Below are positions 2,672-34,024 of a stretch of DNA of 40,141 nt, in pieces (position 1 is the first letter of the stretch; each line of letters opens with the position of its first letter). The position numbers and the translations under genes are program-made. The stretch spans positions 1-40,141 of the forward strand of contig JAFGNB010000111.1 in NCBI GenBank assembly GCA_016927235.1, read 5' to 3'. Below the pieces are notes generated by a model that was not told where the DNA came from, did not search any database, and saw only the letters and a program-made list of their open reading frames with translations. This stretch comes from Chitinispirillaceae bacterium (GTDB lineage Bacteria; Fibrobacterota; Chitinivibrionia; Chitinivibrionales; Chitinispirillaceae).

Positions 2672-4276
2672 GTGAATATTCATTTTATCAAATACTCTCT
2701 CGGAAAGCTTCTCCAGCTGCTGGCGTTCTCTATGGTGATCCCCGGAATCATCGCCGCGGTTGAGGCGAATCACACCTCCATCGCCGTCACGTTGCACGAC
2801 GTGCAGGTCGGAGGTTTTTGTATCGCGATTGTTCTGTCGCTCCTGACCGGCACCGTTCTTACGCTGCTGCCGCGAAAGGATACCGGTGAACGGACAATCA
2901 GGGAGGGGTTTGCCATCGTCACGTTCGGCTGGCTGCTGCTCACCCTGTTCGGCGGCATTCCGCTGTTTATTTACTTTGTAAAGTCATCCGATCGGCAAGG
3001 CGTTCTTTTCCTTTTGCGCTGCTTTACCGACGCCTGTTTCGAAGTCATGAGCGGCTTCACGACTACCGGCGCCACGATCCTTGCCGATATCGAAAAACTG
3101 CCCTCGGGCCTGCTCTTCTGGCGAAGCATGACCCACTGGCTCGGGGGCATGGGAATCGTCACCCTCGGCATCGCCATTTTTCCGGCATTCGGCGTCGCCG
3201 CCTATCAACTGTTCAGAGGGGAGGTTCCCGGCCCGACCGCCGAACGGTTCACGCCGAGTCTTGCTCAAACCGCTAAAATTCTCTGGGGGGTTTATGCGGC
3301 GCTTACTCTCGTCGAAACGGCGCTGCTTTTTGCCGGCGGGATGTCGCTCCTCGATGCTTTCTGCCATGCGTTCGGAACCATGGCCACCGGCGGTTTTTCC
3401 ACACGGAACGCATCGATCGGCGCCTATAAAAGCGCCTACATCGACTGGGTAACAGTACTTTTCATGTTTTTTGCGGGGATGAATTTCATTATACACTACA
3501 ACCTGATTTTTTTCCGTAAATGGAACATCCTTGCAGCCAACCACGAGTTCAGGTTTTACGGCATCGTCATTATTACGGCCATCGCCGTCACAACAACGGT
3601 CTTGATGGTGCAGGGACTTGGCGGAAGCGGCGACATCACCAGAAGTTACCGCCGCACACCTTTGACACAAGAGCGCTTCGAACAAAAAACCGCCGCCGAA
3701 GAAGCAAAAATCGCCTCGTTCGGTTCCACCCTCCGCCACGCAACCTTTCAAGTAGTCTCGATCATCACCACCACCGGATACTGTACCGCCGATTTCGATA
3801 TGTGGCCGGGGTTCACTCGTCTGTTGCTCGTCGTGATCATGTTTTTCGGCGGATGTGCAGGCTCGACCGGGGGCGGTATGAAAATGGTGCGTATCATGGT
3901 CGTCATAAAATCCTCCCTGCGCGAGGTACGGTCGATGATTCAACCGCGCCGGATTATCGCCGTCAGAATCGCCGACAAGGCGATCGACGAAAAACAGGTC
4001 CACGCCATCGTCGGCTTTTTCGTCATGTTCCTTGTATGTACCGCCGGGTTTTCACTGATCATGTCGCTCTTCATTCCCGATTTTACCACGGCAGTCAGTT
4101 CGGTGATCGCCACCATCTGTAATGTCGGTCCGGGGCTGTCGGGGATCGGGGCTACGGAGAATTACTCCTGGATTCCCTCACCCGGAAAATGGATGCTCAT
4201 TTTAAGTATGCTCCTTGGAAGGCTTGAACTTTATACGGTGCTGATCGCCTTCGCGCCCGCTTCCTGGCGAAAATAG
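2672..4276 (+). CDS. trkH: Trk potassium uptake transmembrane subunit TrkH
   Basis: TrkH is the inner-membrane pore subunit of the potassium transporter. The 534 aa are strongly hydrophobic, and all four selectivity-filter loops of the family are visible: SGFTTTGATIL, FGTMATGGFSTRN, ITTTGYCTADFD and CNVGPGLSGIG. The last transmembrane part keeps the usual SMLLGRLELYTVLIAF signature. GTG at 2672 gives a normal start. An insert of about 60 polar residues around 310-350 (GGSGDITRSYRRTPLTQERFEQ) is typical of TrkH proteins with a loop before the third filter. It is co-directional with trkA. No convincing terminator hairpin follows, and 165 bases separate it from the next gene. Confidence 0.95.
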   Translation: MNIHFIKYSLGKLLQLLAFSMVIPGIIAAVEANHTSIAVTLHDVQVGGFCIAIVLSLLTGTVLTLLPRKDTGERTIREGFAIVTFGWLLLTLFGGIPLFIYFVKSSDRQGVLFLLRCFTDACFEVMSGFTTTGATILADIEKLPSGLLFWRSMTHWLGGMGIVTLGIAIFPAFGVAAYQLFRGEVPGPTAERFTPSLAQTAKILWGVYAALTLVETALLFAGGMSLLDAFCHAFGTMATGGFSTRNASIGAYKSAYIDWVTVLFMFFAGMNFIIHYNLIFFRKWNILAANHEFRFYGIVIITAIAVTTTVLMVQGLGGSGDITRSYRRTPLTQERFEQKTAAEEAKIASFGSTLRHATFQVVSIITTTGYCTADFDMWPGFTRLLLVVIMFFGGCAGSTGGGMKMVRIMVVIKSSLREVRSMIQPRRIIAVRIADKAIDEKQVHAIVGFFVMFLVCTAGFSLIMSLFIPDFTTAVSSVIATICNVGPGLSGIGATENYSWIPSPGKWMLILSMLLGRLELYTVLIAFAPASWRK

Positions 4277-7765: not shown

Positions 7766-9838
7766 CTACAACAGTGCCTTCCGGCTTAACTTGACCTTTC
7801 CGAATCGGTCGAACCCGATCAGCTTGACCTGCAGTTTGTCGCCGACCTGGAGCACGTCCTCTACTTTTTCCACCCGACGCTTTTCCAGTTCGGAGATATG
7901 GACGAGCCCTTCCTTTCCGGGCAGGAATTCGACGAATGCGCCGAAATCGACGATCGTTTTCACCACCGCATCATACACCGCACCGAGTTCCGGCTCGGCG
8001 ACGATGCCCTGAATACGTTTGAGTGCGGCGTCGCGCTGTTCCTTGTTCGCTGCGGCGATCTGGACGGTACCGTCGTCTTCGACGAAAATGGTGGTCCCCG
8101 TGGTGTCCTGTATGTCGCGGATTACTTTACCGCTCGGACCGATAATCTCCCTTATTTTATCCTTGTCAATAACGATGGTGCTTATGCGCGGGGCAAATAC
8201 CGAAAGCTCCTTACGCGATTCGGGAATGGTCTTTTCCATAATCTCAAGAATCTGCAATCGTGCTATGCGCGCTTTTTCAAGCGCTTCCTGCATAATCTGC
8301 GGGGTAATACCCGCAATTTTGATATCCATCTGGATGGCGGTGACGCCGATTCTGGTACCGGCGACCTTGAAATCCATGTCGCCCACATGGTCTTCGGTCC
8401 CTAGAATATCGGTAAGGATCGCCACCCGTTCTTCCTCTTTGATAAGTCCCATGGCGATGCCGGCGACGTGGGTTTTGATCGGCACCCCGGCAGCCATGAG
8501 CGACAGGGAGGAACCGCATATCGATGCCATCGACGAAGACCCGTTCGATTCAAGGATCTCCGATACGACGCGAATGGTATACGGGAAGCTCTTTTCACTT
8601 GGAAGCACCGGCGCCAGAGACCGCTCGGCCAGATGACCGTGACCGATCTCGCGCCTGCTGACCGATCCCAAACGCTTCACTTCGCCGACCGCAAACGGCG
8701 GAAAGTTGTAATGGAGCATATACGATTTGTCGTATTTGGCCTGAATATTGTCGATATGCTGCAGGTCGAGTTTGGTGCCGAGCGTCGTCGCCACCAGCGC
8801 CTGGGTCTCTCCTCGTGTAAAGAGCGCCGCTCCATGGGCGCGGGGCAGCACATCAAGTTCACAAGTGATCGGACGAATGGCGTCGACCGGCCGGCCGCCG
8901 ATGCGTACTCCTTCGTCAAGAATACTGCGGCGTATGTCACGGCGTTCGATGTCGTAAAAGATTTGTGCGACGGCCGCCTCTTTCTCGGGGAACCGTTCCG
9001 CCAGGGAGGCCTGCACCTCCTTGAGCAGCTGGTCGATCCCGCTGTACCGTTCCTGTTTATTACCCCTGAAACTGATGTCGTGGATACGTCCGGCTACGGC
9101 TGATTCGACCGCCGAAACCAGTTCAGGATCGATCGCCGGAGCTTCAACGGCGCACTTTGCCTTTCCGGCCTTTGCGATGAGCTCTTTCTGAATTCCGACC
9201 AGTTTTATTATCTCCCGGTGTGCCAGCAGAAGCGCCTCGATCAACGTATCCTCACTGATCTCAAACGCTCCGCCTTCGACCATCATGATCGAACTCTCCG
9301 TTCCTGCGACCACCATATCGAGCGACCCTGTCTCCGTCTCCGCCAAAGAGGGAAATACCTTGAGTTCATTATTGACCATACCGATCCGCACCCCTGCCAC
9401 CGGGTCGGAAAACGGCATATCGGAGAGACAGAGCGCACATGAAGCTGCGGTAATCGCCATCACATCGGCATCATAGGTTTCATCCGCCGAAATCACCGTA
9501 CAGATAACCTGAACCTCGTTGCGGTAGAAATCCGGAAAAAGGGGCCGGATGGGCCGGTCGACCAATCGCGCAGCGATAACCTCCTTTTCACTCGGTCGCC
9601 CTTCGCGTTTGATGAAGCCTCCCGGAATGCGGCCCGCGGCATAGGTTTTTGCGATAAATTCCACCGTGAGCGGGAAAAAATCATTTTCAGTGCTTTCGGC
9701 ACCGTTACATGCGGTCGCCAGTACCATGGTATCGCCGATGCGGGCAATGGCGGCGCCGTTCGCTTGTTTCGCCATCCGGCCCGTTTCGATTGATACACTG
9801 GTTCCGCCGATGTCGGTTGCTACGGTAAAACAGGTCAT
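7766..9838 (-). CDS. pnp: polyribonucleotide nucleotidyltransferase (PNPase)
   Basis: PNPase degrades RNA 3' to 5' phosphorolytically and can add tails. The 690 aa show two RNase PH-like halves (first containing PGGFIKREGRPSEKE and RPIRPLFP; second with FTRGETQALVATTLGT and YNFPPFAVGEV), then a KH domain (IREIIGPSGKVIRDIQDTTG, about 555-615) and a C-terminal S1 domain (GAVYDAVVKTIVDFGAFVEFLPGKEGLVHISEL). GAGGAG nine bases before ATG 9838 sets the start. rpsO lies 186 bases upstream, the same order as in E. coli, where PNPase autoregulates through its leader. The leader here carries its own hairpin (separate entry). Confidence 0.97.
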   Translation of the reverse strand: MTCFTVATDIGGTSVSIETGRMAKQANGAAIARIGDTMVLATACNGAESTENDFFPLTVEFIAKTYAAGRIPGGFIKREGRPSEKEVIAARLVDRPIRPLFPDFYRNEVQVICTVISADETYDADVMAITAASCALCLSDMPFSDPVAGVRIGMVNNELKVFPSLAETETGSLDMVVAGTESSIMMVEGGAFEISEDTLIEALLLAHREIIKLVGIQKELIAKAGKAKCAVEAPAIDPELVSAVESAVAGRIHDISFRGNKQERYSGIDQLLKEVQASLAERFPEKEAAVAQIFYDIERRDIRRSILDEGVRIGGRPVDAIRPITCELDVLPRAHGAALFTRGETQALVATTLGTKLDLQHIDNIQAKYDKSYMLHYNFPPFAVGEVKRLGSVSRREIGHGHLAERSLAPVLPSEKSFPYTIRVVSEILESNGSSSMASICGSSLSLMAAGVPIKTHVAGIAMGLIKEEERVAILTDILGTEDHVGDMDFKVAGTRIGVTAIQMDIKIAGITPQIMQEALEKARIARLQILEIMEKTIPESRKELSVFAPRISTIVIDKDKIREIIGPSGKVIRDIQDTTGTTIFVEDDGTVQIAAANKEQRDAALKRIQGIVAEPELGAVYDAVVKTIVDFGAFVEFLPGKEGLVHISELEKRRVEKVEDVLQVGDKLQVKLIGFDRFGKVKLSRKALL

Positions 9839-9912
9839 GTACGTGCACTCCTCATGTTAATTGTAAAGTTATGCGGGATGTTTGTGCTTTGGCGCATGCC
9901 CAACGATGGCGA

Positions 9913-9972
9913 TGCCGACGGATGGGGAACGTGACGGTCGGCAGCGTCGCTCTTCATACGCTCGGCGCCGAC
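9913..9972 (-). promoter_or_regulatory. stem-loop region in the rpsO-pnp leader with alternative pairing
   Basis: Read on the minus strand, TGCCGAC (9943-9937) pairs perfectly with GTCGGCA (9919-9913) across a 17-base loop. A further GTCGGC copy upstream (9972-9967) can pair with the same GCCGAC, so two mutually exclusive stems are possible. The hairpin sits 75-130 bases before the pnp start. In enterobacteria the pnp leader hairpin is cut by RNase III and used for PNPase autocontrol; a similar role here is inference. It has no U-run, so it is not an intrinsic terminator. Confidence 0.4.
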
Positions 9973-10024
9973 TGCAGATGGTCAATGATCCACCCATGGT
10001 TGCGGGAAATAACTGTCGGATCCA

Positions 10025-10294
10025 CTATTTCCTGATATTCAATTTCTTAATGACGGTACGATACCGTTCGATGTCGGTTTTAATCAGGTAATCAAGCAGT
10101 GATCGGCGCTGCCCTACCAGTTTGAGAAGGCCGTATCGGGTATGATGATCTTTGGGGTGCGTTTTACAATGCTCGGTAAGTTGGTTGATCCGTTCCGTCA
10201 ATAAAGCGATTTGTACATCGGTTTTTCCGGTGTTTTTCTCATCGCTGCCGTATCCGACGGCGATTTCCCTTTTCCGTTCCTTGGTTAATGGCAT
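10025..10294 (-). CDS. rpsO: 30S ribosomal protein S15
   Basis: S15 is a primary 16S rRNA-binding protein of the 30S platform. The 89 aa match the family from end to end: LTKERKREI at the start, [21 protein letters not shown], then the rRNA-binding helix-loop [21 protein letters not shown] and the C-terminal [18 protein letters not shown] is placed eight bases before ATG 10294. The first 56 bases lie inside the 3' end of ribF in a different frame, an unusually long overlap for a ribosomal protein gene, and imply coupled translation. Confidence 0.97.
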
Positions 10295-11234
10295 GACTCT
10301 TCTCCTTCATGAAAAAATTCCGAACGGTTCTTACATCATCATGTATTTGAGCACTAAGCTCGTCCGCCGTGGAGAATGCACGATCTTTCCGAACAAACCC
10401 GTGAAGCCGCAACCGTGCACTTTCACCACAATCGGGGAATGGCTCTCCGCCGTCAAACGAATGGAATTCGAAATGCACCGATCGGTTTGTAAAGGTCGGA
10501 CACTCGCCGAAATAAAGTGCACCGGGCTTCAAAAAATTCTCGAATTCCAATTCGGCTGCATAAACTCCAGCAGGAGGTAACACTTTTTGCGAAGGCGGCC
10601 TTTTAAAATTGAGCGTCGGAAAACCAAGCCGGGAGCCTATGTTCAAACCCGGTATTCGCTCCGTCGAAATCAGATAGGGATGCCCCAGCATCTCAACCGC
10701 TTCGACTATGCGTCCGTTAATTATCTCAACCCTGATCCGGGTGGATGAAACAACCCTGCGCTGCTGTTCCAACAGATCTATAATAAATGGTATAATATGA
10801 TATTTGCACATAACATTGTGCAAAGAATTCTTTTCACCGGACCTGTCCCTTCCAACGCCATGATCTTCCCCCATAATCCATTCTATCGCATGAAGTTGCT
10901 GTACCATTACCGTTTCGACGAACTCTTCCGATGAAAGCCGGCTGAATACCGGTGTAAACGGCAGACAGAGCAGATAATCAATTTTCAAGGGTTCGATAAG
11001 ACGGACTTTTTCATCAAAGGTGGTCAATATCTCAAATGGCATCTCCGGATTAAGCACCAAACGAGGATGCGGATCGAAGGTAACAAGTGCGCTTTTACAA
11101 CCCCGTTTTGTCGCCTGTTGCACCACCTTGTCGATAAGGTATCGATGCCCTCGGTGCACCCCGTCAAAATTGCCGACAGATGCAACGGTCGCTGTACCAT
11201 CACTGAGACGTTCATCAGGTCCGAGAATCCGCAT
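10239..11234 (-). CDS. ribF: bifunctional riboflavin kinase / FAD synthetase
   Basis: RibF makes FMN and FAD from riboflavin. The N-terminal nucleotidyltransferase domain has [18 protein letters not shown] (the HxGH-like site) and, further on, [15 protein letters not shown]. The C-terminal kinase domain has [15 protein letters not shown] (the PTAN-like loop, here PTLN), [10 protein letters not shown] and a late FEFHSFDG segment in place of the usual VEVHLLDF. ATG 11234 is preferred over an in-frame ATG 24 bases upstream because GGAAGGAG stands seven bases before it. The start overlaps the end of truB by 20 bases, and the end runs 56 bases into rpsO. Confidence 0.94.
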
Positions 11235-12120
11235 GCAGCGCTCCTTCCGGTGAGACAAACACCCGTAAGGGGTGAAAAAGGTTTTCTTGAACCCTGACTA
11301 AAACCGCCGCAAGCTCCTCTCCCGCAAAAAGCATGACATTCCGGCCGGCTGTCGGAAATGATTGCGGGAGCATAATATCTCTGCCGTGCAGCACCTGCTG
11401 CACCGTCGCCTGATCGCCGTGCAGGCAGGGGAACTCGTTGAATGCTTGCCGGATCGATACGAGGGGCGTTGATGCGGTTATCGCTTCAAACCGGCATGCA
11501 TCTGCAAGGGTAAATTTTCCGCACGACCATCGTCGTATCGAAGAGGCGTACCCGAAGGTTCCGAGCTTCAATGCAATATCACGTGCAAGCGCTCTCACAT
11601 AGGTGCCCCCGGAGCATGCGACACGACATTGAGCCTGCCCTGCCGTTTGGTTATAGTGCAGCAGTGACAGGGAATGAATCGTGATCTCACGGGGCGAAAG
11701 TTGCGGGATTCTCCCCCGGCGGGCAAGCGCATAGGCACGTACCCCTCTTATTTTAAGTGCGGAAAACGCCGGGGGGGTCTGCATCTGAAGACCGATAAAC
11801 AGAGGGATAGCCGCAGCAACGGCATTATTGTCCGGAATCGGACCTTCGGAACGGACGACCGTGCCCGCCGCATCCAGCGAATCGGTCTCCGCCCCGAACT
11901 GGATGGTGAATTCATACACTTTAGGTTCGGTCGGCAGGAATGGGAGGAGACGTGTCGCCTTACCGAACGCGAGAATGAGCAACCCCTCCGCCTGCGGGTC
12001 AAGCGTTCCGGCATGACCGGCTTTTTTATCTGAAAAAAGTATCCGCACCCGGCGCACGATATCAAAAGAGGTTACTCCCCGCGGTTTATCGATAAGAAGG
12101 AAACCGCCGCTTGTATTCAA
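11215..12120 (-). CDS. truB: tRNA pseudouridine(55) synthase
   Basis: TruB converts U55 of the tRNA T-loop to pseudouridine. FLLIDKPRGVTSFDIV is motif I, and KAGHAGTLDPQAEGLLILAFGKATR is motif II with the catalytic Asp in GTLDP. QTPPAFSALKIRGVRAYALARRG and CSGGTYVRALARDI are the later family blocks. The 301 aa are a normal length, with a short C-terminal domain. The start is TTG at 12120, forming a TTGA overlap with the stop of the upstream DHH gene and preceded by GGGAG. It ends inside ribF. Confidence 0.96.
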   Translation of the reverse strand: MNTSGGFLLIDKPRGVTSFDIVRRVRILFSDKKAGHAGTLDPQAEGLLILAFGKATRLLPFLPTEPKVYEFTIQFGAETDSLDAAGTVVRSEGPIPDNNAVAAAIPLFIGLQMQTPPAFSALKIRGVRAYALARRGRIPQLSPREITIHSLSLLHYNQTAGQAQCRVACSGGTYVRALARDIALKLGTFGYASSIRRWSCGKFTLADACRFEAITASTPLVSIRQAFNEFPCLHGDQATVQQVLHGRDIMLPQSFPTAGRNVMLFAGEELAAVLVRVQENLFHPLRVFVSPEGALHADSRT

Positions 12121-13067
12121 CCCAACTCCCGTCTGAGAATATCGATCATAAAGGAAAAAGCCTCACCATACGGCCGGCTTATCGTACACCCCGCAGCGCT
12201 GAAATGACCGCCGCCGCCGGGTATCTTCTGGGCTATTTTCCCCACATCGACCTTGCCCTTGGAGCGAAGGCTGAAATGTGACTCTTTTTCGTCGTATTTG
12301 ATCAACATTCCCACCTCAACACCCTCGGCAATGATCGTATTGTCGGCCATCCCTTCGCTGTCGCTGTAATGTGCTTCAAGCTCATCAAGAACGGCAAGGG
12401 GCATATCCATGCAGCATACCTTTCCGTCAAGATGAAACCGCAGCGTCGACCAGATACGCGCCTGCAGAAGCAGCGCCTTCGGCGCGTGCGAGGCATATAC
12501 CTTTTCGTAAATACTCGAGCAATCGGCCCCATGCTCGACAAGTTCGGAACAGTATCTCAGAATAGCCCCTGTCGTATTTGAGAACCGGAAACCGCCGGTA
12601 TCGGTCATGATTGCGGTATAGAGCGCTTCAGCGACATACGGAGGAAAATCGATCGAACAATCGCAAAAAAACCGGTAAAGGATGGCTCCCGTCGCCGCAG
12701 CGTTACTATCGACGATATTAACAGCTCCGAAGCCCGTATTATCACGATGGTGGTCGATATTTACCATGACGGGCGCAATAGCCTCAACCTTCCAGCCGAG
12801 ACGGCTACAATTCGAGCAATCAAGCACGATCAGGACATCGAACGCCGAGTCCGGTTTGTCGTTGAGTATGGTGTCGTGAACGGTAAGAAATGCGAACTTT
12901 GCCGGGACGGGATCCTTGTTGTAAATGGTAACGTCTTTACCGAGTGACGTAAGATACCATCTCATCGCCACCTGCGATCCGACGGAATCTCCGTCGAGGC
13001 TCATATGGGAGGAAATCAGAAAACGGTGATTGGCATCAACAAGTGAACGGAAATCATCCCACCGCAT
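12117..13067 (-). CDS. nrnA: DHH/DHHA1 phosphoesterase, bifunctional oligoribonuclease/pAp phosphatase (NrnA-like)
   Basis: NrnA-type enzymes degrade 2-5 nt RNA and dephosphorylate pAp. The DHH motifs are intact: ISSHMSLDGDSVGSQVAM (motif I), LIVLDCSNCSRLG (motif II), MVNIDHHRDNTGFG (motif III, DHH), IMTDTGGFRFSNTT (motif IV), and the DHHA1 substrate loop GGGGHFSAAGC near the end. The length of 316 aa is typical. ATG 13067 lies inside the last 14 bases of rbfA, and its stop overlaps truB, so three genes are chained. A place between rbfA and truB is a known conserved context for this family. Confidence 0.93.
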   Translation of the reverse strand: MRWDDFRSLVDANHRFLISSHMSLDGDSVGSQVAMRWYLTSLGKDVTIYNKDPVPAKFAFLTVHDTILNDKPDSAFDVLIVLDCSNCSRLGWKVEAIAPVMVNIDHHRDNTGFGAVNIVDSNAAATGAILYRFFCDCSIDFPPYVAEALYTAIMTDTGGFRFSNTTGAILRYCSELVEHGADCSSIYEKVYASHAPKALLLQARIWSTLRFHLDGKVCCMDMPLAVLDELEAHYSDSEGMADNTIIAEGVEVGMLIKYDEKESHFSLRSKGKVDVGKIAQKIPGGGGHFSAAGCTISRPYGEAFSFMIDILRRELG

Positions 13068-13413
13068 CGTGAATTTCTTTAAGAAGCTGATGAATATGTT
13101 CTACGTGTTCCATGGTATCGTCGTATTTAAAGTAGAGGCGAGGGAAATGTTTCACGGTAATACGCGAGGCGACAAGACGCTGGATAAAAGGAGCGGCGTT
13201 GTTGAGCGCTTCGACGGCATCTGCGGCCTTTCTTTTATCGTCGAATATACTGACGAAAACCGTCGCGTTTCTTGTATCGGGAGCAAGGTTGATTCCGGTG
13301 ATAGTCACAATCGGCGGAACCCTCGGATCACGCAGCTCACGGGAGATTACCGCGACTATTTCACGTCGCAGCACTTCAGCCAATCGCTCTTTATGAAAAT
13401 GCGGAGAAGCCAT
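13054..13413 (-). CDS. rbfA: ribosome-binding factor A
   Basis: RbfA helps late 30S maturation and 16S 5'-end processing. In 119 aa it shows the KH-like fold signatures: RLAEVLRREIVAVISRELRDPRVPPIVTITGI (in parts), ATVFVSIFDD, and the late block PFIQRLVASRITVKHFPRLYFKYDDTMEHVEHIHQLL. GGTGGG precedes ATG 13413. It starts eight bases after the infB stop and overlaps the DHH gene at its end, giving the standard infB-rbfA-nrnA-truB order. Confidence 0.96.
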   Translation of the reverse strand: MASPHFHKERLAEVLRREIVAVISRELRDPRVPPIVTITGINLAPDTRNATVFVSIFDDKRKAADAVEALNNAAPFIQRLVASRITVKHFPRLYFKYDDTMEHVEHIHQLLKEIHDAVG

Positions 13414-13420
13414 TGCCCAC

Positions 13421-15886
13421 CTATGTTACGCTGGAAAGCTTGCGCGCAATTTCGACCTCTTCAAACGCCTCGACCCGGTCCGCTTCCCGGTAATCGGACC
13501 AATTCTCTATAGTCAGTCCACATTCATGCCCGTTTTGTACCTCGCGCACGTCTTCCTGCATGCGGCGCAGGCTGTAAATACGTCCTTCGGTCACGACGAT
13601 ATCATCGCGTATGAGTCGTACCCGGTCGCCGCGGCAAACCGTACCGGATTCGACAAATGAACCGGCGACGGTGCCGACCTTGGAAACCTTGAACACTTTT
13701 CTGACGACCGCGGATCCGATGATATTCTCTTTAATTTCAGGCTTGAGCATCCCTTCCATGGCACTGCGCACGTCGTTGAGCACTTCGTAAATGATCCGAT
13801 AGGTACGGATTTCGACGCCTTGTCGTTTCGCCAGTTCCCTTATTTTCGAATTCGGACTGAGATGGAACCCGATAATAAGCGCCGTTGATGCCATGGCCAG
13901 ATTTATATCGGTCTCTTTGATTGCTCCAACACTTTTGTGGATAACGCATACTTTTATTTCATCGGTGCTCAATTTCTCAAGCGAAGCCGCGAGCGCCTCA
14001 ACCGATCCGTCGACATCCCCCTTGATGATCAGGTTGAGGGTCTGCATGCTGCCGGCCTTGATCTGTTCGTAGAGATGGTCGAGTGAAATGGTTCCGATGG
14101 TGCGCAGCTCGCGCTCTTTCTGCGCAAGCCTGCGGCGTGCGCTGATTTCCCTCGCCTCCTTCTCGTCGTCAACGACCCTGAACGAATCTCCCGCCTGCGG
14201 CGTACCCGACAGCCCCAGAACCAGCACCGGGTGCGACGGGCCGGCGCTCTCCACCAGCCGACCGTGTTCGTCGAACAGTTCTCGGACGCGGCCCGAGTGA
14301 ATGCCGGTAATGAAGGGATCGCCTTTTCGCAAAGTACCCTTCCGTACGAGAATCGTCGCAATCGGACCCTTCCCTTTGTCTAGTTCTGATTCTATCACGA
14401 CGCCGTGTGCTTTACCAAGAGGTTTCGCTTTGAGTTCGAGGATTTCGGTTTCAAGCGCCAGCACTTCCAGAAGACGGTCGATGCCCTTCCCCGTTTTCGC
14501 GGAAATCTCCACGCATGACACCTGACCGCCGTAATCCTCGACCAGCACATTGTACTGGGCAAGCTCACCTTTCACACGGTCGACATTGGCGGTCGGCAAA
14601 TCTATTTTGTTAATCGCAACCACCAGAGGAACCCCGGCGGCGCGTGCATGGTCGATGGCTTCCCTGGTTTGCGGCATTACCCCTGATTCGGCGGCGACCA
14701 CCAGCACGATAACATCGGTGATCTGCGATCCGCGGGCGCGCATTGCGGTAAACGCCTCATGACCCGGCGTGTCGAGAAACGTCACCGGACCCTGTTTTGT
14801 CTGGACCTCATACGCCGCGATATGCTGGGTAATCCCCCCTGCTTCCCCCGAAACGATATTTGCTTTTCTGATGAAATCCAGAAGCGAGGTTTTTCCATGA
14901 TCAACGTGACCCATGACCGTCACGACCGGCGCACGTGGAACCGTCTGCCCTTCACCGGCCTCGGATTCACCCTCATCGGATTCCTGAGCGTATTCGGTCA
15001 TTAATTTCGCATTGTAGCCGAATTCGTCGGCAACCATTTCGATCGTTTCAAAGTCAAGCCGCTGGTTGATCGTTACAAACAGGCCGAATTCGAGACATTT
15101 CGCGATGACGTCGGCAATCGGCACACTCATCATGTTGGAAAGCTCGTTTACCGTAACGAACTCCGCGACATTAAGCACCTTTTTGCTCTCGCCGATCGCC
15201 TCTTCCGGTGAAGCGGCCTCTTTCTTGTATTTCTTTTTTGTAAATCCTGAACCGATTTTGGCAAGCGTTTTTTTTATGTTTGCTTTAAGCTGCAACTCGT
15301 CGATTTCGGGCCGTTCATTGCGTTTTTTCCCCTTTTTCTTATCTTTTTTGTCTTTACGCGTCGACGGCTTCCCCTCAGCCGACACCACCTCGGCCGTTGG
15401 CCTTTCCCCCGCCGCAGCCTTCTGTTGAGGAGGCATGTAGGTCTGTTCTCTTCCGAAAGCCGAAACCGTACCCGGCGCACCCCTGCCGCGTTCCCTGAAA
15501 GCGGTATGCCGTGTCTGCCGGTATCTGTCGGTCTGAAGAGTGTCCTGCGCCGACCTGACAGCAGACTCGGTGGTATAGGGACGGTCCGGCGACGAGGCTG
15601 CGGCTTCGATCGAACCGACGTCCTGCGCCGACGAAGCGTTCTCTTCATCGCCCCGCTTGATCAACTCTTCCCGGGCACGTGTGAGCATCTGCTTTTTCCG
15701 CTCATACTCTTTTTTAATTTCAGCACGTTCCTGTTCAAATTTCTTCCTAATATCGTCACGAAGACTCTCATCCACCGTACTCATATGGCTTTTAACGGGA
15801 ATGCCCATGGCGCGAAGCATCTGTACAAGCGCTTCACTTGACACTTTAAATTCTTGAGCTAATTTGTAGACCTTCTCTTTTGCCAT
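13421..15886 (-). CDS. infB: translation initiation factor IF-2
   Basis: IF-2 is the GTPase that brings fMet-tRNA to the 30S subunit and promotes subunit joining. The 821 aa start with an IF2_N domain ([20 protein letters not shown]), then about 180 charged, low-complexity residues including a lysine-rich run near 178-190. A second IF2_N-like domain lies near 235-300. The G domain follows: GHVDHGKT at 326-333, DTPGHEAF near 375 and NKIDLP near 430. C-terminal beta-barrel and fMet-tRNA-binding domains complete it ([30 protein letters not shown]). GGAGAGG precedes ATG 15886. The 104 bases between it and nusA, where ylxR usually sits, hold no gene. Confidence 0.97.
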
Positions 15887-15956
15887 TGGTTACCTCTCCG
15901 TATGACTGTCCCCGCTTGCAGGGTTGAAATGCGTTACGACTCTCGGCAGTATTGTT

Positions 15957-15972
15957 TTTCCGCAGACGGAAA
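15957..15972 (-). other. small perfect hairpin between nusA and infB
   Basis: TTTCCG and CGGAAA pair perfectly around a four-base loop, 70 bases before the infB start and just after the nusA stop. No U-run follows on the minus strand, so it is not an intrinsic terminator. It could be an RNA-processing or stabilising stem; function unknown. Confidence 0.35.
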
Positions 15973-15990
15973 CGTGGACGCATATCTGAT

Positions 15991-17358
15991 TTATTCCGAA
16001 GTCACGTCGGATACCCCTTGGTGCTGTTTTTCCTCTTTATCAACGTTATCTCCCGCATCCTCATCGGTTGCCGACAGGGGTTCGATCGCCTCACTGGACA
16101 TTTCGTCAAGCCCTGCATCTTCCCCTCCCGCTTCACTGCCGACGTTTCGGTCGGCCGCCGGAGCAGCCGTCTCGTCGGCGGCAGGATCGTCATTCGATTC
16201 ATCCGGTTTTTTTTCTTCAACCGCCTGGCCGTCCGCAACGTCGTCGGCCGCCTGACTTCGTTCCTGCAAGGCTGCAGTACGCTGCTCTTCAGTCATATTC
16301 GCATATTCCTGATCGCCGAACACATCGATATCCTTATCGAGCATCTTTGAGGCGAGACGGATATTCTGCCCTTCGCGCCCGATCGCCTGAGCAAGATCTT
16401 CTTCGCTTATCACCACGACGATCTTCCGATCCCCTGCCGGAATCACCCGCTTCACTTCCGCAGGTGAAAACACCCGTCGAACAAGCAGCGACAGCTCCTC
16501 GGTCCAGTTGATTATGTCAATACGCTCATTTGACAATTCACGGACGATGGCCTGAACGCGGTTTCCCCGCATCCCTACGCAAGCGCCGACCGGGTCGACC
16601 CTGCTGTCGTTGGTTGTGACGGCGATTTTCGACCGATGGCCGGGATCGCGGACAACCTTGACGATACGGACCGTCTTATCGAATATCTCGGGAACTTCCA
16701 GCTCGAAAAGACGCGCCAGAAATTCAGGGCACGTCCGCGAGATGATAACCTGTGGTCCCTTTGGATTATTCTTTACCTCGAGAATGCAGGCGCGGATATT
16801 GTCCCCCTGCCGCCAATGCTCTTTCCTGATCTGTTCCCGGTAAGGCAGAAGCGCCTCGGTACGGCCGAGATTGACAAGAATATTGCCTTTTTCAATCTGC
16901 TGAACCGTACCGGTCACCAGTTCGCCCACGCGGTTGCTGTAATCGGCGAAAATTTTTTCCCGCTCGGCCTCTCGAACGCGCTGGATAATGACCTGTTTCG
17001 CCGTCTGGATCGCCATACGACCGAACAGTTCGATATCGAGGTCCTGGATGAGCTCGTCGCCGATGGCGATATCCTCCTCGATTTCCTTCGCTTCCGCGAT
17101 GGATATCTGCATTTCCGGATCCTCGACCGTCTCAACGACGTTCTGCCGTATATAAACTTCAATCGTCCCTTTTTCCCGGTCGACCTTCGCTTCGACGTTT
17201 TTCGGTGTACCGAGATATTTCTTTGCGGCGGTCGTAAGAGCGTCTTTCAGGCTGTCGAGCACCAGATCGAGGCTGATGCTCTTCTCTTTGGTAACGGCGC
17301 TGATCGAGGCGGCGATATCCAGCGCTTTGAGCGCTTCGGCCTTTCCCTTCTTGTTCAT
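15991..17358 (-). CDS. nusA: transcription termination/antitermination factor NusA
   Basis: NusA binds RNA polymerase and controls pausing, termination and antitermination. Domains in order: the N-terminal RNAP-binding domain (about 1-130, with SISLDLVLDSLKDALTTAAKK), S1 (GELVTGTVQQIEKGNILVNLG), KH1 (SRVDPVGACVGMRGNRVQAIVREL) and KH2 (SEEDLAQAIGREGQNIRLASKML). From about residue 350 the chain is a low-complexity acidic tail rich in Glu, Asp and Ala, with no helix-hairpin-helix AR repeats. An in-frame ATG at 17364 overlaps the rimP stop, but AAGGA abuts it; the ATG at 17358 has that site at a proper six-base distance, so I chose it (455 aa). Confidence 0.95.
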   Translation of the reverse strand: MNKKGKAEALKALDIAASISAVTKEKSISLDLVLDSLKDALTTAAKKYLGTPKNVEAKVDREKGTIEVYIRQNVVETVEDPEMQISIAEAKEIEEDIAIGDELIQDLDIELFGRMAIQTAKQVIIQRVREAEREKIFADYSNRVGELVTGTVQQIEKGNILVNLGRTEALLPYREQIRKEHWRQGDNIRACILEVKNNPKGPQVIISRTCPEFLARLFELEVPEIFDKTVRIVKVVRDPGHRSKIAVTTNDSRVDPVGACVGMRGNRVQAIVRELSNERIDIINWTEELSLLVRRVFSPAEVKRVIPAGDRKIVVVISEEDLAQAIGREGQNIRLASKMLDKDIDVFGDQEYANMTEEQRTAALQERSQAADDVADGQAVEEKKPDESNDDPAADETAAPAADRNVGSEAGGEDAGLDEMSSEAIEPLSATDEDAGDNVDKEEKQHQGVSDVTSE

Positions 17359-17360
17359 CC

Positions 17361-17834
17361 TCATTCCTTCCCGTAGTGGTTAAATCGTATTTCCTCTTTG
17401 CCGCTATTAATTGCCGCAAGCGGCAGTTCCACCGCTCGTCCGTTGCAGCTAAGGCAAAGAACGTCCTGCTCACACCGCTCGATAATCCCCTTTACCTGCA
17501 TTTTTCCATTATAGGGTTTCCTTAGGTAAACAGTCACCTCTCTTCCGCATGCCCGACGAAAATCGCGTTCTTTTTTAAGCGGTCGGTCGATCCCCGGCGA
17601 AGAAACCTCCAGGGTATAGGAACGGCCATTGATGAAATTTTCCACATCCAGAAAAAGCGATAGTTCATTGCTGACCTGCTCGCAATCCGCGATCGTTACC
17701 CCTGTCGGCCGGTCGATAAAAATACGAAGTATCGATCGGGAACCCGCCCTGAAAAAACGCGCCTCGAAGAGTTCGAATCCCATCTCGGCACATTTCTCCG
17801 CGATCAGCGGTTCGAGGTGTTCCAGCGACGACAT
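17361..17834 (-). CDS. rimP: ribosome maturation factor RimP
   Basis: RimP assists 30S assembly. The 157 aa show both domains: an N-terminal alpha/beta domain (LFEARFFRAGSRSILRIFIDRPTGVTIADCEQVSNELSLFLD, in parts, and YTLEVSSPGIDRPLKKERDFRRACGREV) and a C-terminal SH3-like domain. EVSSPGIDRPL is the clearest family signature. GGGAG lies six bases before ATG 17834. It is the first gene of the rimP-nusA-infB operon, directly after the leader terminator described separately. Confidence 0.95.
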   Translation of the reverse strand: MSSLEHLEPLIAEKCAEMGFELFEARFFRAGSRSILRIFIDRPTGVTIADCEQVSNELSLFLDVENFINGRSYTLEVSSPGIDRPLKKERDFRRACGREVTVYLRKPYNGKMQVKGIIERCEQDVLCLSCNGRAVELPLAAINSGKEEIRFNHYGKE

Positions 17835-28656: not shown

Positions 28657-30262
28657 GCGCCTGCTCACGCCTCCTCGCCCTCACCCCCCGCGTTGCCGCC
28701 GCTGCCAAGACACCCACCACCGTTGCCCAGCACAGGACGACGAACCAATCCCCGTAGCGTGCATAAAACGTTTCGGCCTTCTGAAGCGGTAACGTTCCTT
28801 CGAGGACCCTCCGTTCCCCCAGTTTCGTTGCTCCCAGTACTCTTCCCTTCGGATCGACCAGCATGCTCACGCCGGTGATCGCGCAACGAGCCGTGGCAAC
28901 GCCGTTTTCAATCGACCGCATCCTCGCCATCATGGCGTGCTGATGGGGGCCGGTCGTCCTGCCGAACCATCCGTCGTTGGTGATATGGACGAGCAGGTTT
29001 ACTCCATACCGCAAACGCTGCCGTACGTACGCGGGATAAATCATTTCATAACAGATCACCGGTGCGGCGCGGATGGAATCACCGATCGCGTAAACGGTCA
29101 TCTCATGTCCCTTCTTGAAGTCGGCCTCCCCTAAATTGACACGTGAAAGAATGGGGAAAACCCCCTCCAGCGGAATATTCTCACTGAACGGAACCAGGAT
29201 GATTTTTCGGTATGGTACGATTTCATGTTCATACGGCCGGATCAGAAAGGCGGTATTGAATACAAGGTAGTCGTACGCCGAGTTTTCCGGCGCCGGATCC
29301 CAGTGCAGGGCTCCGAGAAGGATCGGCACGCCGGTCGAATCCGCCCAGCAGCAGACCCGTTTCCGCCAACTGTTCTTCCGCGACAGAAAGCAGAGCAGTG
29401 CGCTTTCCGGACCGACGATGAGATCGGGCTTCGCTTTCGCCGCTGAATATACCATGGAATCGGTCACCATGAAGGAGGTGTCGAGCAAACGCCGATTCCA
29501 GTTCAACTGATCAATCGCGGTCTGCAGCAGCGCAATTTTCACCGCTGGCCGTTTCGACGGTAGTGCAATCCTCATCCATCCCCAGAGCGCAATCAGCCCC
29601 ACCACCACGATGAATGCCGCACCCTTGACTGCATTGCCGCGGCAATCGTCCCCGCGATACCAAGCGATGCCGATCTCCCAAACGAGCAGGTTCCCGGCAA
29701 CAACCAGAAAGTTCAATCCCCATACGCCGGTAATCGAAGCAAGCTGGCTTACCGGCAGAATCGGCGTTAGGTTATAGCCAAGAAACCCCCACGGGAAAGA
29801 GATTTCACCGAGCGTCCTGAGGTAATCGATCACCACCCAGCAGGCGGGGAAAAAAAGAAGGTACAACCGCGGCAAAGAGCGGTAACACCACCTGAATGCC
29901 ATCCCGGCAATAAAGAAAAAAACCGCCACGATCGCCGCCATCACCACCATGCCGAGTATGATCAGCGCCCACAGTCCCTCAATTGTTACAAACACAAGCC
30001 AGAAATTCTGCACGAGGGCTGTTGAATAGGCAAAAAGGTAGGTATGGAGGAGCGCCCTGCCTCGCGGCTGCTGCACCGCAAAAAACAGCAGTGGGATGAC
30101 AACGAAAAAATTCAGAAATGGAAAAAACGTGAAGGACCAATGGAGCTCATGGTTGAACGGCGGCAGGCAGATAACAAACGGAAAACCGGCAATGAGCGGA
30201 AGCCACCACCGGTTTTTTTTTCTGTAAAAAAAGACGAGCCGTCGCGTTATTATTTGCAGCAT
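28628..30262 (-). CDS. lnt: apolipoprotein N-acyltransferase
   Basis: Lnt adds the third acyl chain to lipoproteins in the inner membrane. The 544 aa start with about six to seven transmembrane helices (residues 15-225) and carry a periplasmic nitrilase-like domain (about 240-500). A final transmembrane segment follows (WFVVLCWATVVGVLAAAA). The catalytic triad is visible: Glu in IVGPESALL, Lys in YRKIILVPFSE and Cys in PVICYEMIYP; NDGWFG follows as usual. The C-terminal 20 residues are basic and derive partly from the repeat noted there. ATG 30262 lies inside the end of the upstream PKD gene (13-base overlap), so the two are co-translated. It fits the presence of lipoproteins and an outer membrane. 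Confidence 0.95.
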   Translation of the reverse strand: MLQIITRRLVFFYRKKNRWWLPLIAGFPFVICLPPFNHELHWSFTFFPFLNFFVVIPLLFFAVQQPRGRALLHTYLFAYSTALVQNFWLVFVTIEGLWALIILGMVVMAAIVAVFFFIAGMAFRWCYRSLPRLYLLFFPACWVVIDYLRTLGEISFPWGFLGYNLTPILPVSQLASITGVWGLNFLVVAGNLLVWEIGIAWYRGDDCRGNAVKGAAFIVVVGLIALWGWMRIALPSKRPAVKIALLQTAIDQLNWNRRLLDTSFMVTDSMVYSAAKAKPDLIVGPESALLCFLSRKNSWRKRVCCWADSTGVPILLGALHWDPAPENSAYDYLVFNTAFLIRPYEHEIVPYRKIILVPFSENIPLEGVFPILSRVNLGEADFKKGHEMTVYAIGDSIRAAPVICYEMIYPAYVRQRLRYGVNLLVHITNDGWFGRTTGPHQHAMMARMRSIENGVATARCAITGVSMLVDPKGRVLGATKLGERRVLEGTLPLQKAETFYARYGDWFVVLCWATVVGVLAAAATRGVRARRREQAPVVSSEKAV

Positions 30263-33024
30263 CGAAACCCGGCATAAAAATACTTTCTGCCCTTCTTAAG
30301 CCGGATTCTCGATCCACAGCCGCTCCCCTCCCCGCCGTTTTGCCACGACCCGCCGTACACAAAGGGATCACCGTTGCCGCTTTCGACCCATTCGGCGGCA
30401 TTGCCGCTCATGTCGAACACCCCCGCGCTGTTTTTGCACTCAATAAAATCGCCGGAAACCGCGATGCTGTTCTGCACTCGCGGATTCCCGAGCGTGTTGC
30501 ATCGGTCGAGGTCGTAGCGGGTGCCGTACGGATATTCATATTTGAGATTAACATCGCGGCAAGCGGTCTCCCATTCCGCCGCAGTGCAAAGCCGTTTCCC
30601 GGCGTCCGCACAGAATCGGCGGGCTTCTTCGTAACTCACGTCGATTCGCGGTTTGACGCCGCGTCGATTCGGAAACTCATAGGCATCAATACAGAATCCG
30701 CTTCCCTCAATCGTCCGCATGCCGTCCGGACAAATGACAATACGGACGGTATCGGAAGCGCTGTCGCCGTCGGAATCGTAGACACGGAAGACCGCGTCAG
30801 TATACGCTTCGAACGCACGCTCGACGTTGCCGCTCTCTTTCGATGACCAGTCCATGACGTTGTCACTGTTGAAGTCCCACGCATACAGGGCAATCGTCCC
30901 GTCTTCGTCGGTAGCGGTGCCTGCGAGTCTGACTTTCCGTTTCTTCCGGGAGATGATATCATCTCCGGCGGAGGCGATCGGGGGCTTGTTGATCACCTCG
31001 ACGCATGCGCTGTCGGAAGCTTTTTGACCGTCATCAGTTGTTATATAAAAGTACGCCGAATACACTCCCGCCTTTTTGTAGGTATGCTCCGCTTTCGTTT
31101 CACGCTCCGAATGCCAGTCGATGTTTCCATCCCCGTCCGCATCCCAGGAGTACTCTACGATCCGACTGTCGAGATCACTCCCCGATCCCTCAAGAACGAC
31201 CGGTGTATTCACGCCGGCACGATACGGGCCGCCGGCATCGATTAACGCCGCACTGTTGATCACCGCAATCCCCTTTGATACCGTTTTCTGCCGGTCCTTT
31301 TCGTCGGTCATCCGGCAGAGAACGGTTACCTTCCCCGCTTTGCGGAACATCGTTCGCACTGCAGCCTGGGTACCTTTTTTCGGGTAAACGGAATCCCCCT
31401 TGAAACTCCATGCGAACTCCCTGACGGGGAATTCAGACGCATGCGGTAGGCAAGTGAATTTCACCGAATCGCCTACATGAACCGTATCGGGGCCGTCGAT
31501 CGAACCGCCCGTCATCTCTTTACAAACCACTATCTCGACGGAAGCCGTACTTGCTGCGCCGTCCCTGTCGGTGATTTCAGCGACAACGCGGTATGTTCCG
31601 GGGCGCTCCCAGGCATAGGCGGCCTTCGCTGCGGTAAGAAACCGATTGCCCTCGGGAAGGTCCCACGTCCCATTGTTGTCGATATCGTACCGCACCTTGA
31701 GCGGTGTCGAACCGTTTCGCGTATCGGTACTCGCCGAAACGTCCAGTTCCACCGGGGTCCCGACGGTCACCAGCACCGGAACCGCCTTGAGTATTGCGAC
31801 AGGAGGCGCATTCACGGTGATCGACCGTCGAACGGATGCGGTCTGCCCTTCATCCGAACGCGCTTCGGCGCGTATTCGAAACACTCCTTCCTTACTATAC
31901 CTGTGTATGAGTGTCGATGCTTTCCCGAAGGTGCCGTCGGACGGAACATCAGTTTTCCCGTCGCCGTTCAGATCAAAACGATACCGAACCTTTTTCTTAT
32001 CAACTCCCAACGGCAACAGGGAAATTGAAATCGGTTTGCCCGGCTCCGCCATCCGCGGCGACAGCAGACGCAGCGACAAGCCTGCTGAAACGCTCAAAAC
32101 AACGCTGGCGGTGCACGAATACGCATCGGCATCAATTGCCGCTATCGTAAGGGTATGATCACCAGCCTTTTGCGCGGTGTACGCGAGTATTCCGGAACGC
32201 TCATCAAGCGTCATTCCCTCCGGCGCTTCACAGAGCACATAAGTGATACCGGTCCGTTCGGGATCGACTGCCTCCACAGTGTCAATGAACGATTCTCCCT
32301 CCAAAGCGGTTTCGCTCGGCAGGCGCTGCCACTGAGGAGGCTCGTTAACCGCTGCCGCTTCGTTCACCGTACATCCCGACCGGTTCAGCGCTTCCTCTAC
32401 AATCGTCGAACCGACCCATCCCTTGATTGAAGCGATGTCGGAGGCGCGCAACGGTTCAAGCGTTCCCGGCCCGGTCTCGCCGTGCTGCAACCGGGTGCAT
32501 GCAGGAATAACGGTTTCAGTACCGCCGCTGAAAGTAAAGGTGGCGAAACCCGCCAGAAGCACCACTCCGCACATATCGGCACCGTGCCGCGCACGGATGG
32601 AAATATCCGCCCCGGTGACGCGGACCGTCCACGGCGGTGCGGTGATCAGATACTCCTCGTAGGATTCGTCGCGTTTTACAATGTAAATCTCTCCCGCCGC
32701 GAGGGACGCAACAAGGCGTTGCTTAACGCTTGATAATGGTACCGCTTTATCAACCGCCAGCTCAGAGCCCTCGTTCAGATACCATGCCGCCCCGCCGGCA
32801 CATTCGAATTTTACCTTCGAGTTTTCTCTTACGATTACGGTATCCCCCGGCCGCAGCAACCGGTTCGGTTCCAGCATGATACGCTCGCCCTTGCGCACCA
32901 ACTCCACCGTTCCGACAATAATCGCGGCATGGGGAAAACCGGATCGTCCATCGGTACCGCAGAAAGTGAAAATCGTTGCGCACACAAGGACAGCTAGGAT
33001 GCATTTCCGGTCCGTTCGATTCAT
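30250..33024 (-). CDS. surface protein with FecR-like, PKD-like and SUMF1/FGE-like domains
   Basis: The 924 aa begin with a hydrophobic export signal (KCILAVLVCATIFTF). Residues of about 34-200 resemble a FecR domain (VELVRKGERIMLEPNRLLRPGDTVIV; VRVTGADISIRARHG). A cadherin/Ig-like segment lies near 230-315, then four or five PKD-type modules to about 745. Several of these carry Ca-binding-like loops (DLNGDGKTD, DIDNNGTWD, DADGDGNID, DFNSDNVMD). The last 170 residues are a formylglycine-generating-enzyme fold: FCIDAYEFPNR, KRLCTAAEWETAC, GNAAEWVES, YGGSW, and the end YFYAGFRCCK. Only one of the two copper-binding cysteines of true FGE is in place, so enzyme activity is doubtful. A cell-surface binding or structural role is inferred. 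A near-consensus promoter precedes it. Confidence 0.88.
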   Translation of the reverse strand: MNRTDRKCILAVLVCATIFTFCGTDGRSGFPHAAIIVGTVELVRKGERIMLEPNRLLRPGDTVIVRENSKVKFECAGGAAWYLNEGSELAVDKAVPLSSVKQRLVASLAAGEIYIVKRDESYEEYLITAPPWTVRVTGADISIRARHGADMCGVVLLAGFATFTFSGGTETVIPACTRLQHGETGPGTLEPLRASDIASIKGWVGSTIVEEALNRSGCTVNEAAAVNEPPQWQRLPSETALEGESFIDTVEAVDPERTGITYVLCEAPEGMTLDERSGILAYTAQKAGDHTLTIAAIDADAYSCTASVVLSVSAGLSLRLLSPRMAEPGKPISISLLPLGVDKKKVRYRFDLNGDGKTDVPSDGTFGKASTLIHRYSKEGVFRIRAEARSDEGQTASVRRSITVNAPPVAILKAVPVLVTVGTPVELDVSASTDTRNGSTPLKVRYDIDNNGTWDLPEGNRFLTAAKAAYAWERPGTYRVVAEITDRDGAASTASVEIVVCKEMTGGSIDGPDTVHVGDSVKFTCLPHASEFPVREFAWSFKGDSVYPKKGTQAAVRTMFRKAGKVTVLCRMTDEKDRQKTVSKGIAVINSAALIDAGGPYRAGVNTPVVLEGSGSDLDSRIVEYSWDADGDGNIDWHSERETKAEHTYKKAGVYSAYFYITTDDGQKASDSACVEVINKPPIASAGDDIISRKKRKVRLAGTATDEDGTIALYAWDFNSDNVMDWSSKESGNVERAFEAYTDAVFRVYDSDGDSASDTVRIVICPDGMRTIEGSGFCIDAYEFPNRRGVKPRIDVSYEEARRFCADAGKRLCTAAEWETACRDVNLKYEYPYGTRYDLDRCNTLGNPRVQNSIAVSGDFIECKNSAGVFDMSGNAAEWVESGNGDPFVYGGSWQNGGEGSGCGSRIRLKKGRKYFYAGFRCCK

Positions 33025-33152: not shown

Positions 33153-33410
33153 TTACAGCGTCTGGTCCAGCGCCTGAGCAAAACCGTGCCCTAGATCGTC
33201 GATAACGGTTTCGCTGTTATAAAAACCCGCTTCAATACGGCGTTTTATCGAATCAAGAAGTTTTTTCCGTGACGGATCAGGTTGATACCGTGGTGAATCG
33301 GCGTCAAACGGCGACTGCGTCTCACTTTTTTTGGATCGATAGCCGGATTCCAGCCGGCATACGTTGCCCTTCGCCGAAGCGGCGTGTAATTCCCATCCCT
33401 GGATACGCAT
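33153..33410 (-). CDS. small protein, FlgM-like anti-sigma-28 candidate
   Basis: ATG 33410, with GAGGG about nine bases upstream, opens 85 codons. The C-terminal half (SRKKLLDSIKRRIEAGFYNSETVIDDLGHGFAQAL) has the pattern of the FlgM sigma-binding region, lysine-rich helix then IxxRIxxGxY and a second helix. The N-terminal half is polar and looks disordered, as in FlgM. The frame stays open upstream of the ATG without another good start. A perfect sigma-28 consensus promoter lies 155 bases upstream on the same strand, matching the usual sigma-28 control of flgM. Sequence similarity alone is weak; context raises the confidence. Confidence 0.6.
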   Translation of the reverse strand: MRIQGWELHAASAKGNVCRLESGYRSKKSETQSPFDADSPRYQPDPSRKKLLDSIKRRIEAGFYNSETVIDDLGHGFAQALDQTL

Positions 33411-33564
33411 CTCAAGTTCCCTCTCAAGATTTCCTGTACAGCGCCGATATTCACACGGAAATAAGTGCCGTTTCTCCCATTTTATTTTATTAAATAAAAA
33501 ACACTGCTTTTATCTTTTTTTCTATTTTATTCTCTGCCTTATTACCTACTTTCCCCTTCTAGGT

Positions 33565-33591
33565 TTATCGGCGTGAAATGTATAAACTTTA
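33565..33591 (-). promoter_or_regulatory. sigma-28 (FliA-type) promoter, perfect consensus
   Basis: Minus-strand TAAAGTTT (33591-33584), 11 bases, then GCCGATAA (33572-33565) matches the enterobacterial flagellar sigma-28 consensus TAAAGTTT-N11-GCCGATAA at every position. It points to the FlgM-like gene. Confidence 0.82.
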
Positions 33592-33799: not shown

Positions 33800-34024
33800 A
33801 TGAAAGAGAAGGTACAGGAAGTTATTGACGAGATCCGTCCAGTGCTCCAGGCGGACGGAGGTGATATCGATCTGATCGACGTTACCGCCGACGGCCTCGT
33901 AAAAGTGAAGCTGCGCGGAGCCTGTCACGGTTGTCCGGGAGCGGCAATGACCCTTAAAATGGGAGTCGAACGGATCTTGAAGGAGCGAATCCCGGAAGTA
34001 ACCGGGATCGAAAACGTGGTGTAA
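33800..34024 (+). CDS. Nfu-type iron-sulfur cluster scaffold/carrier (NifU C-terminal domain)
   Basis: The 74 aa are a stand-alone NifU-C domain: EVIDEIRPVLQADGGDIDLIDV, then LRGACHGCPGAAMTLKMGVERILKERIPEV. The CxxC at C42/C45 binds a [4Fe-4S] or [2Fe-2S] cluster that is handed to target proteins. GAGAGGATATTC before ATG 33800 provides the ribosome site. Its stop overlaps the DUF116 gene (TAATG), which itself carries Cys-rich motifs; cluster delivery to that protein or to the flavodiiron partner system is a reasonable inference. Confidence 0.95.
   Translation: MKEKVQEVIDEIRPVLQADGGDIDLIDVTADGLVKVKLRGACHGCPGAAMTLKMGVERILKERIPEVTGIENVV

Follow-up and report, generated by a model that had tools for sequence, protein, structure and literature searches.

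A small RNA (sRNA) gene, predicted from sequence and previously undescribed, is located on the strand opposite the 5' leader of a flgM-like gene in a Chitinispirillaceae bacterium (Fibrobacterota), and carries a sigma-28-type promoter of its own. We consider it likely that this sigma-28-dependent sRNA pairs in trans with a flagellin mRNA, and that the anti-sigma mRNA is its antisense partner. The basis of this two-RNA reading is the presence of two promoters, a terminator, the conservation of the sRNA and covariation in trans, as seen by sequence analysis and comparison. The sRNA probably controls the amount of flagellin made, and the duplicated Shine-Dalgarno sequence in the flagellin hairpin suggests a switch. 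Repression by such a structural switch, and with it the sign of the regulation, is modelled by folding and uncertain.

Genomic context of the flgM-like gene

The window, that is, the whole stretch of 40,141 nt analysed here, belongs to an assembly of 4.15 Mb in 396 contigs that is 86.75% complete. The initial annotation had described a perfect sigma-28 promoter upstream of a small FlgM-like gene, and this promoter (P1, TAAAGTTT-N11-GCCGATAA, full sequence TAAAGTTTATACATTTCACGCCGATAA) sits exactly as claimed at 33591..33565 on the minus strand (33565-33591). None of 100 dinucleotide-shuffled versions of the window contains the P1 pattern, and P1 is conserved upstream of the homologues, where relatives retain P1 plus a leader of about 100-180 nt. 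The genome scan for the same promoter, which had been proposed as a check, found two exact copies in the whole 4.15-Mb genome, the other being directly upstream of a canonical flgM, while the degenerate sigma-28 pattern occurs at only 11 sites. The conserved neighbours of the locus are a NifU-like gene (33800..34024, plus strand; PF01106, tblastn on related loci), which is divergent and marks the ancestral locus, and downstream a gene for a PKD/FGE-sulfatase-domain protein (30250..33024, minus strand; family search, related loci). Elsewhere in the window, 7766-17364 on the minus strand is an ordinary conserved cluster of pnp, ribF, truB, a DHH phosphoesterase gene, infB and nusA, with no motility genes.

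The flgM-like ORF (33410..33153, minus strand) encodes a protein of 85 aa with the C-terminal end RKKLLDSIKRRIEAGFYNSETVIDDLGHGFAQALDQTL. Of 61 relatives, 36 have a homologue; these come from all seven sampled families of the order, and families f8 and f11 of the phylum have none. The suggested FlgM-type relation was borne out by hhalign, in which the C-terminal 37 columns of the family profile matched canonical FlgM from the same order (probability 97.8, E 1.1e-12), with RKKLLDSIKRRIEAGFYNSETVIDDL of the flgM-like family aligned to RTEKISEVQEKLKTGYYDSPEFLDKL of canonical FlgM. Used as a query, the window protein reaches canonical FlgM loci with E values from 2.6e-4 to 3.7e-3. The window protein alone has no Pfam or NCBIfam match (PF04316, TIGR03824) at E<=10; among 29 members of its family, eight match PF04316 (best E 7e-4, 20.2 bits against a cut-off of 25) and three match TIGR03824. 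No FlgM match was found when solved structures were searched with the family profile. An AlphaFold2 model built from two sequences, of low confidence (pLDDT 56), has a disordered N-terminus and helices at 46-60 and 67-84. The protein thus resembles FlgM (PF04316/TIGR03824) in the C-terminal pattern R..ll..IK.kI..GfYnS..v.ddL and in the sigma-28-type promoter, but is shorter, falls under the Pfam cut-off and ends in DLSHgFAkal, where FlgM has DKLAdKLl.eFG. Two more FlgM proteins come from genes on other contigs of the genome, C345 and C336, and the window protein is thus, by homology and profile comparison, a third and divergent FlgM paralogue, specific to the order and below the Pfam cut-off.

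In agreement with the initial annotation, the window ORFs with an assignable family include no further motility gene; the genome as a whole has a full flagellar setting. The gene fliA, whose presence had been named as the thing to look for, was found with 266.9 bits, above the curated cut-off, in the order flhA-flhF-flhG-fliA (flhA, flhF and flhG were named by reading ORF sequences). Flagellin-type genes with sigma-28-type promoters are also present, and such promoters are found at the C345 flgM gene, the C380 flagellin and others. With fliA, flagellins and two further FlgM proteins in the genome, the proposed isolated sigma-28/anti-sigma switch does not hold. Within the same family, Chitinispirillum alkaliphilum ACht6-1 has been cultured and is flagellated (PMC4814513). 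Among other observations on this regulon, the FlgM protein on contig C336 (L061:6791-7081) is above the Pfam cut-off, with an upstream sigma-28-like promoter TAAAGTTC-N11-ACCGATAA and a leader of about 150 nt. On contig C301 (L067, about 3397-3600), a sigma-28-like promoter precedes a small ORF beginning MPVNGINNSEAARVEPVRVEQPAEDTRIEER, whose protein is a putative member of the flagellar regulon. Tandem arrays of about five flagellin genes occur in two related genomes (G039, contig C259; G037, contig C162).

The predicted small RNA gene

The 5' leader of the flgM-like mRNA covers 33411..33557 on the minus strand, its start being estimated about 7 nt past the -10 element, and holds GGAGAAACGGCA on the sense strand at 33466-33477. 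The leader length noted earlier, about 150 bases, stands (about 155 nt from promoter to ATG); the leader is not plain, however, for its opposite strand holds a small RNA gene conserved in the order. Inside the leader, at 33424..33450 on the plus strand, lies a convergent sigma-28-type promoter that the initial annotation had missed (P2, TCAAGATT-N11-GCCGATAT, sequence TCAAGATTTCCTGTACAGCGCCGATAT), one of the 11 sites of the genome scan, so that P1 and P2 face each other across the leader. The predicted sRNA is about 65 nt long (33457..33521, plus strand), with the 5' end estimated from the -10 element and the 3' end from the U-run of the terminator. Downstream of P2, a short sRNA hairpin bears the conserved loop UGCCGUUUCUCC; in the window, this anti-Shine-Dalgarno-like loop TGCCGTTTCTCC is located at 33466..33477 (plus strand), and alignment and pairing comparison reveal that it is complementary to the flagellin leaders of relatives. 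The intrinsic terminator at 33494..33521 (plus strand) has a run of seven T, which is confined to the sRNA strand.

The sRNA alignment comprises the window locus and 16 further leaders with the same arrangement, and forms the basis of a covariance model. Across these 17 genomes, the terminator helix has 11 pairs, nine of which have changes on both sides, while the loop core TGCCG.TT is invariant as the stems vary. The model scores 53.4 bits at the window sRNA (E 3.2e-10), the single strong copy in its own genome. In the order, 18 strong matches (46-76 bits) were found in 40 genomes, one per genome, and all 18 are on the strand opposite the leader of a flgM-like gene. The copy of G030, found by the model outside the training set, carries its own P2, and a recognisable P2 is present at 18 of 18 sRNA loci, with an average of two mismatches in 15 positions. 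Across 168 genomes of the phylum, the maximum score outside the order was 38.8 bits; seven of these weak matches in other families, considered as distant sRNAs, were inspected and turned out to be ordinary gene terminators without the loop. Second matches within the order, considered as extra sRNA genes, were also discarded, several being the complement of flagellin leaders. A search of Rfam with the window region and 11 related loci gave no family above the gathering score, and no upstream reading frame is conserved that might cause the conservation of the leader, as judged by eye from the printed leaders. It should be noted that the terminator and most of the stem of the sRNA in the window's own genome consist of A-U pairs only, and this copy may be weakening.

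Probable pairing with flagellin leaders

A cis-antisense RNA is complementary to its overlapping transcript whatever its sequence, and the loop core is nevertheless invariant; therefore, the order was searched for the complement GGAGAAACGGCA. Besides the flgM-like leaders, one kind of site recurred among the matches, the 5' leader of a particular flagellin gene. Leaders that contain the complementary hairpin sit directly upstream of PF00669 genes. Fourteen such leaders have in common a sigma-28-type promoter, an early TAGGAGA-like sequence and a hairpin of the type CAGGGAGGAGAAACGGCAA...CUCCCUG, followed after about 50-110 nt by the Shine-Dalgarno sequence CAGGGAGG before MRIN. The 5' arm of the hairpin, also CAGGGAGG, repeats the Shine-Dalgarno sequence identically, and CUCCCUG is complementary to both of them. 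The TAGGAGA(A)-like start, about 8-15 nt past the promoter, is common to the flgM-like leaders and these flagellin leaders, termed class A here, and is complementary to UUUCUCCUA of the sRNA; it may offer the sRNA a second site for pairing, or the ribosome a standby site.

In the window's own assembly (86.75% complete, 396 contigs), a class-A flagellin leader was not found with two patterns. The GGAGAAACGGCA sites of this genome other than the leader itself (L136-L138 and L120) are not upstream of flagellin and were rejected as targets. G010 is without the sRNA, and its orthologous flagellin keeps the Shine-Dalgarno CAGGGAGG before the start codon with the hairpin and loop lost. G024 has a related flagellin-leader hairpin, yet no sRNA was found at its flgM-like gene. 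The order also has a second type of flagellin leader (L186, L191, L194, L195, L200 and L204, as well as L064, which belongs to the C380 flagellin) in which the start is preceded by a CAAGGAGG-like Shine-Dalgarno and by small hairpins that look like CsrA sites, for instance GGCAAGGATGCC or CCAACAAGGATGTTGG.

Both the sRNA and the flagellin leader are known in 13 genomes. In all of them, the predicted duplexes have energies from -35 to -44 kcal/mol and 12-20 nt of perfect complementarity, the 20-nt run being that of G032, which has its own variant sequence on both sides: its divergent loop UUGCCGUUUUCCUUCCC is matched by the flagellin leader GGGAAGGAAAACGGCAA on another contig. The mean duplex energy is -38.9 kcal/mol for cognate and -32.2 kcal/mol for non-cognate combinations (P 1e-5, the floor of the test, by permutations that do not model genome relatedness). 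Similarly, 214 Watson-Crick cells were counted for the cognate pairs against 188.9 +/- 4.3 after permutations that likewise do not model relatedness (0/5000). The core is paired in 13 of 13 genomes, and at offset -3 the pair is A-U in seven, U-A in five and C-G in one. These compensatory changes are between different contigs. On such comparative evidence, the sRNA appears to base-pair with an mRNA encoded elsewhere.

However, the sRNA is encoded antisense to the flgM-like leader. To say that it is complementary to the flagellin leader is therefore to say that the two sense leaders are identical, and part of the covariation could come from a sense element common to both. Differences between the two leaders were therefore tested for a bias to those tolerated as G-U pairs. 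Tolerated transitions outnumber the others by 19 to 5 overall and, within the core, by 9 to 0; when each distinct event is counted once, the ratio is 10 to 3 (P 0.046). The numbers are modest, and the asymmetry favours RNA pairing over a shared sense element.

A putative mechanism and its alternatives

In the mechanism that we propose, RNA polymerase with sigma-28 (FliA) would transcribe the flgM-like mRNA from P1, and P2 inside the leader would give the terminated sRNA of about 65 nt. The 5' hairpin of the sRNA would expose UUGCCGUUUCUCC. One flagellin mRNA, whose 5' leader contains the hairpin GGAGAAACGGCAA, is the predicted pairing partner in trans and is putatively transcribed from a sigma-28-type promoter as well. 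With such promoters at each of the three RNAs, the circuit would operate during the late flagellar stage. In the course of transcription, the upstream flagellin hairpin would be expected to form first; pairing with the sRNA may then open this hairpin (5' arm CAGGGAGG) and free the 3' arm CUCCCUG, which would cover the identical CAGGGAGG of the Shine-Dalgarno and lower flagellin translation. Since the flgM-like mRNA includes the entire antisense sequence of the sRNA, it should titrate the sRNA or be degraded with it, and the FlgM-like protein would presumably restrain FliA. The full switch of three RNAs, in which the sRNA flips a flagellin leader with a duplicated Shine-Dalgarno so that the anti-Shine-Dalgarno strand covers the real site, and the flgM-like leader is an antisense decoy, is put forward tentatively, at somewhat less than even chances. 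If it is true, RNA couples the transcription of the anti-sigma gene to the translation of flagellin.

Folding bears on the proposed covering of the Shine-Dalgarno in different ways. With the sRNA site blocked, pairing of CUCCCUG with the Shine-Dalgarno is gained in G002, G003, G015, G025 and G027. In G001, G006, G008, G009, G012, G028 and G032, the Shine-Dalgarno is already covered in the equilibrium fold of the free flagellin leader. With the site blocked, G005 and G008 show a low probability of pairing between the 3' arm and the Shine-Dalgarno. The same sRNA-flagellin pairing might thus activate or stabilise the flagellin mRNA instead of repressing it, since a repressor would add little to leaders in which the site is already covered, and pairing close to the 5' end can protect an mRNA. 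We think this unlikely, though it deserves more credence than the other alternatives below, for CUCCCUG becomes free to pair with the Shine-Dalgarno in the five genomes named above once the pairing region is blocked.

The other alternatives dispense with a trans target. The P2 transcript might act on the overlapping flgM-like mRNA alone, by convergent transcription, duplex formation or RNase III; its overlap with the flgM-like leader is complete and the sRNA is always linked to the flgM-like gene. Complementarity in cis needs no fixed sequence, yet the loop core is the part that stays fixed as the stems change, and there is covariation with the complementary flagellin leaders on other contigs, which makes a purely cis-acting antisense improbable. 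About equally doubtful is the idea that GGAGAAACGGCAA is a protein site in both leaders, with the opposite-strand promoter and terminator of minor importance. An example would be CsrA, which recognises GGA in loops; the flagellin leaders contain repeated GGA motifs, some of them in hairpins that look like CsrA sites, such as GGCAAGGATGCC. A protein site is at odds, however, with the lineage-specific variants that match in both leaders, with the bias of leader differences to those tolerated by pairing with an antisense RNA, and with a P2 and a directional terminator kept in 18 genomes. The least probable by far is the initial view that a plain sigma-28 promoter, a 150-nt leader and a FlgM-type anti-sigma gene make up an isolated switch: the promoter and the FlgM homology are sound, but the full flagellar setting with two further FlgM proteins refutes the view in that form, and the conserved sRNA gene within the leader speaks against it as well. 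Pairing in trans with the flagellin leader is the reading that we prefer.

Comparison with known systems

In the open-licence literature, we found no report of an sRNA opposite an anti-sigma-28 leader that pairs with a flagellin leader. Among the papers considered here, those that describe trans-acting sRNAs in the flagellar cascade do so only for Enterobacteriaceae and Campylobacter, whereas the present one is from Fibrobacterota and was predicted purely from sequence. As comparative evidence for an sRNA-mRNA pair, compensatory changes in trans between an sRNA and its target are unusually strong.

The sigma-28-dependent sRNAs UhpU, MotR, FliX and FlgO of E. coli (PMC10578931) are likewise controlled by FliA and originate from UTR regions, and UhpU, MotR and FliX modulate flagellin levels. 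They differ in being UTR-derived, Hfq-bound and kept in some Enterobacteriaceae, and MotR and FliX pair within coding sequences, while the sRNA here is antisense to a flgM-like leader, has its own promoter and terminator, and has a flagellin 5' leader hairpin as its predicted target. In Campylobacter jejuni, CJnc170/FlmR (PMC11187230) and CjNC1/CjNC4 (PMC4626219) are also FliA-dependent sRNAs; the predicted targets of CjNC1/CjNC4 are flagellar 5' UTRs (PMC4626219). CJnc230/FlmE resembles our case in bringing the anti-sigma factor FlgM and an sRNA into one circuit, with FlmE repressing flgM (PMC11187230). In the parts of these papers considered here, no antisense overlap of an sRNA gene with flgM is reported for FlmR/FlmE or CjNC1/CjNC4, and the targets differ (PMC11187230, PMC4626219). 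The pair CJnc190/CJnc180 of C. jejuni (PMC8687705) is similar in that a trans-acting sRNA is antagonised by an RNA encoded opposite to it; there, each of the two partners is an sRNA, with ptmG as the trans target, whereas here the partner is the leader of an anti-sigma mRNA. Finally, OmrA/OmrB of E. coli act on flgM mRNA (PMC7549644), so that the FlgM-FliA step is under sRNA control there too. They pair with the early flgM coding sequence and depend on Hfq, whereas the sRNA predicted here is encoded opposite the leader, a position that would link the restraint of sigma-28 and the translation of flagellin in one locus and that predicts a testable wiring.
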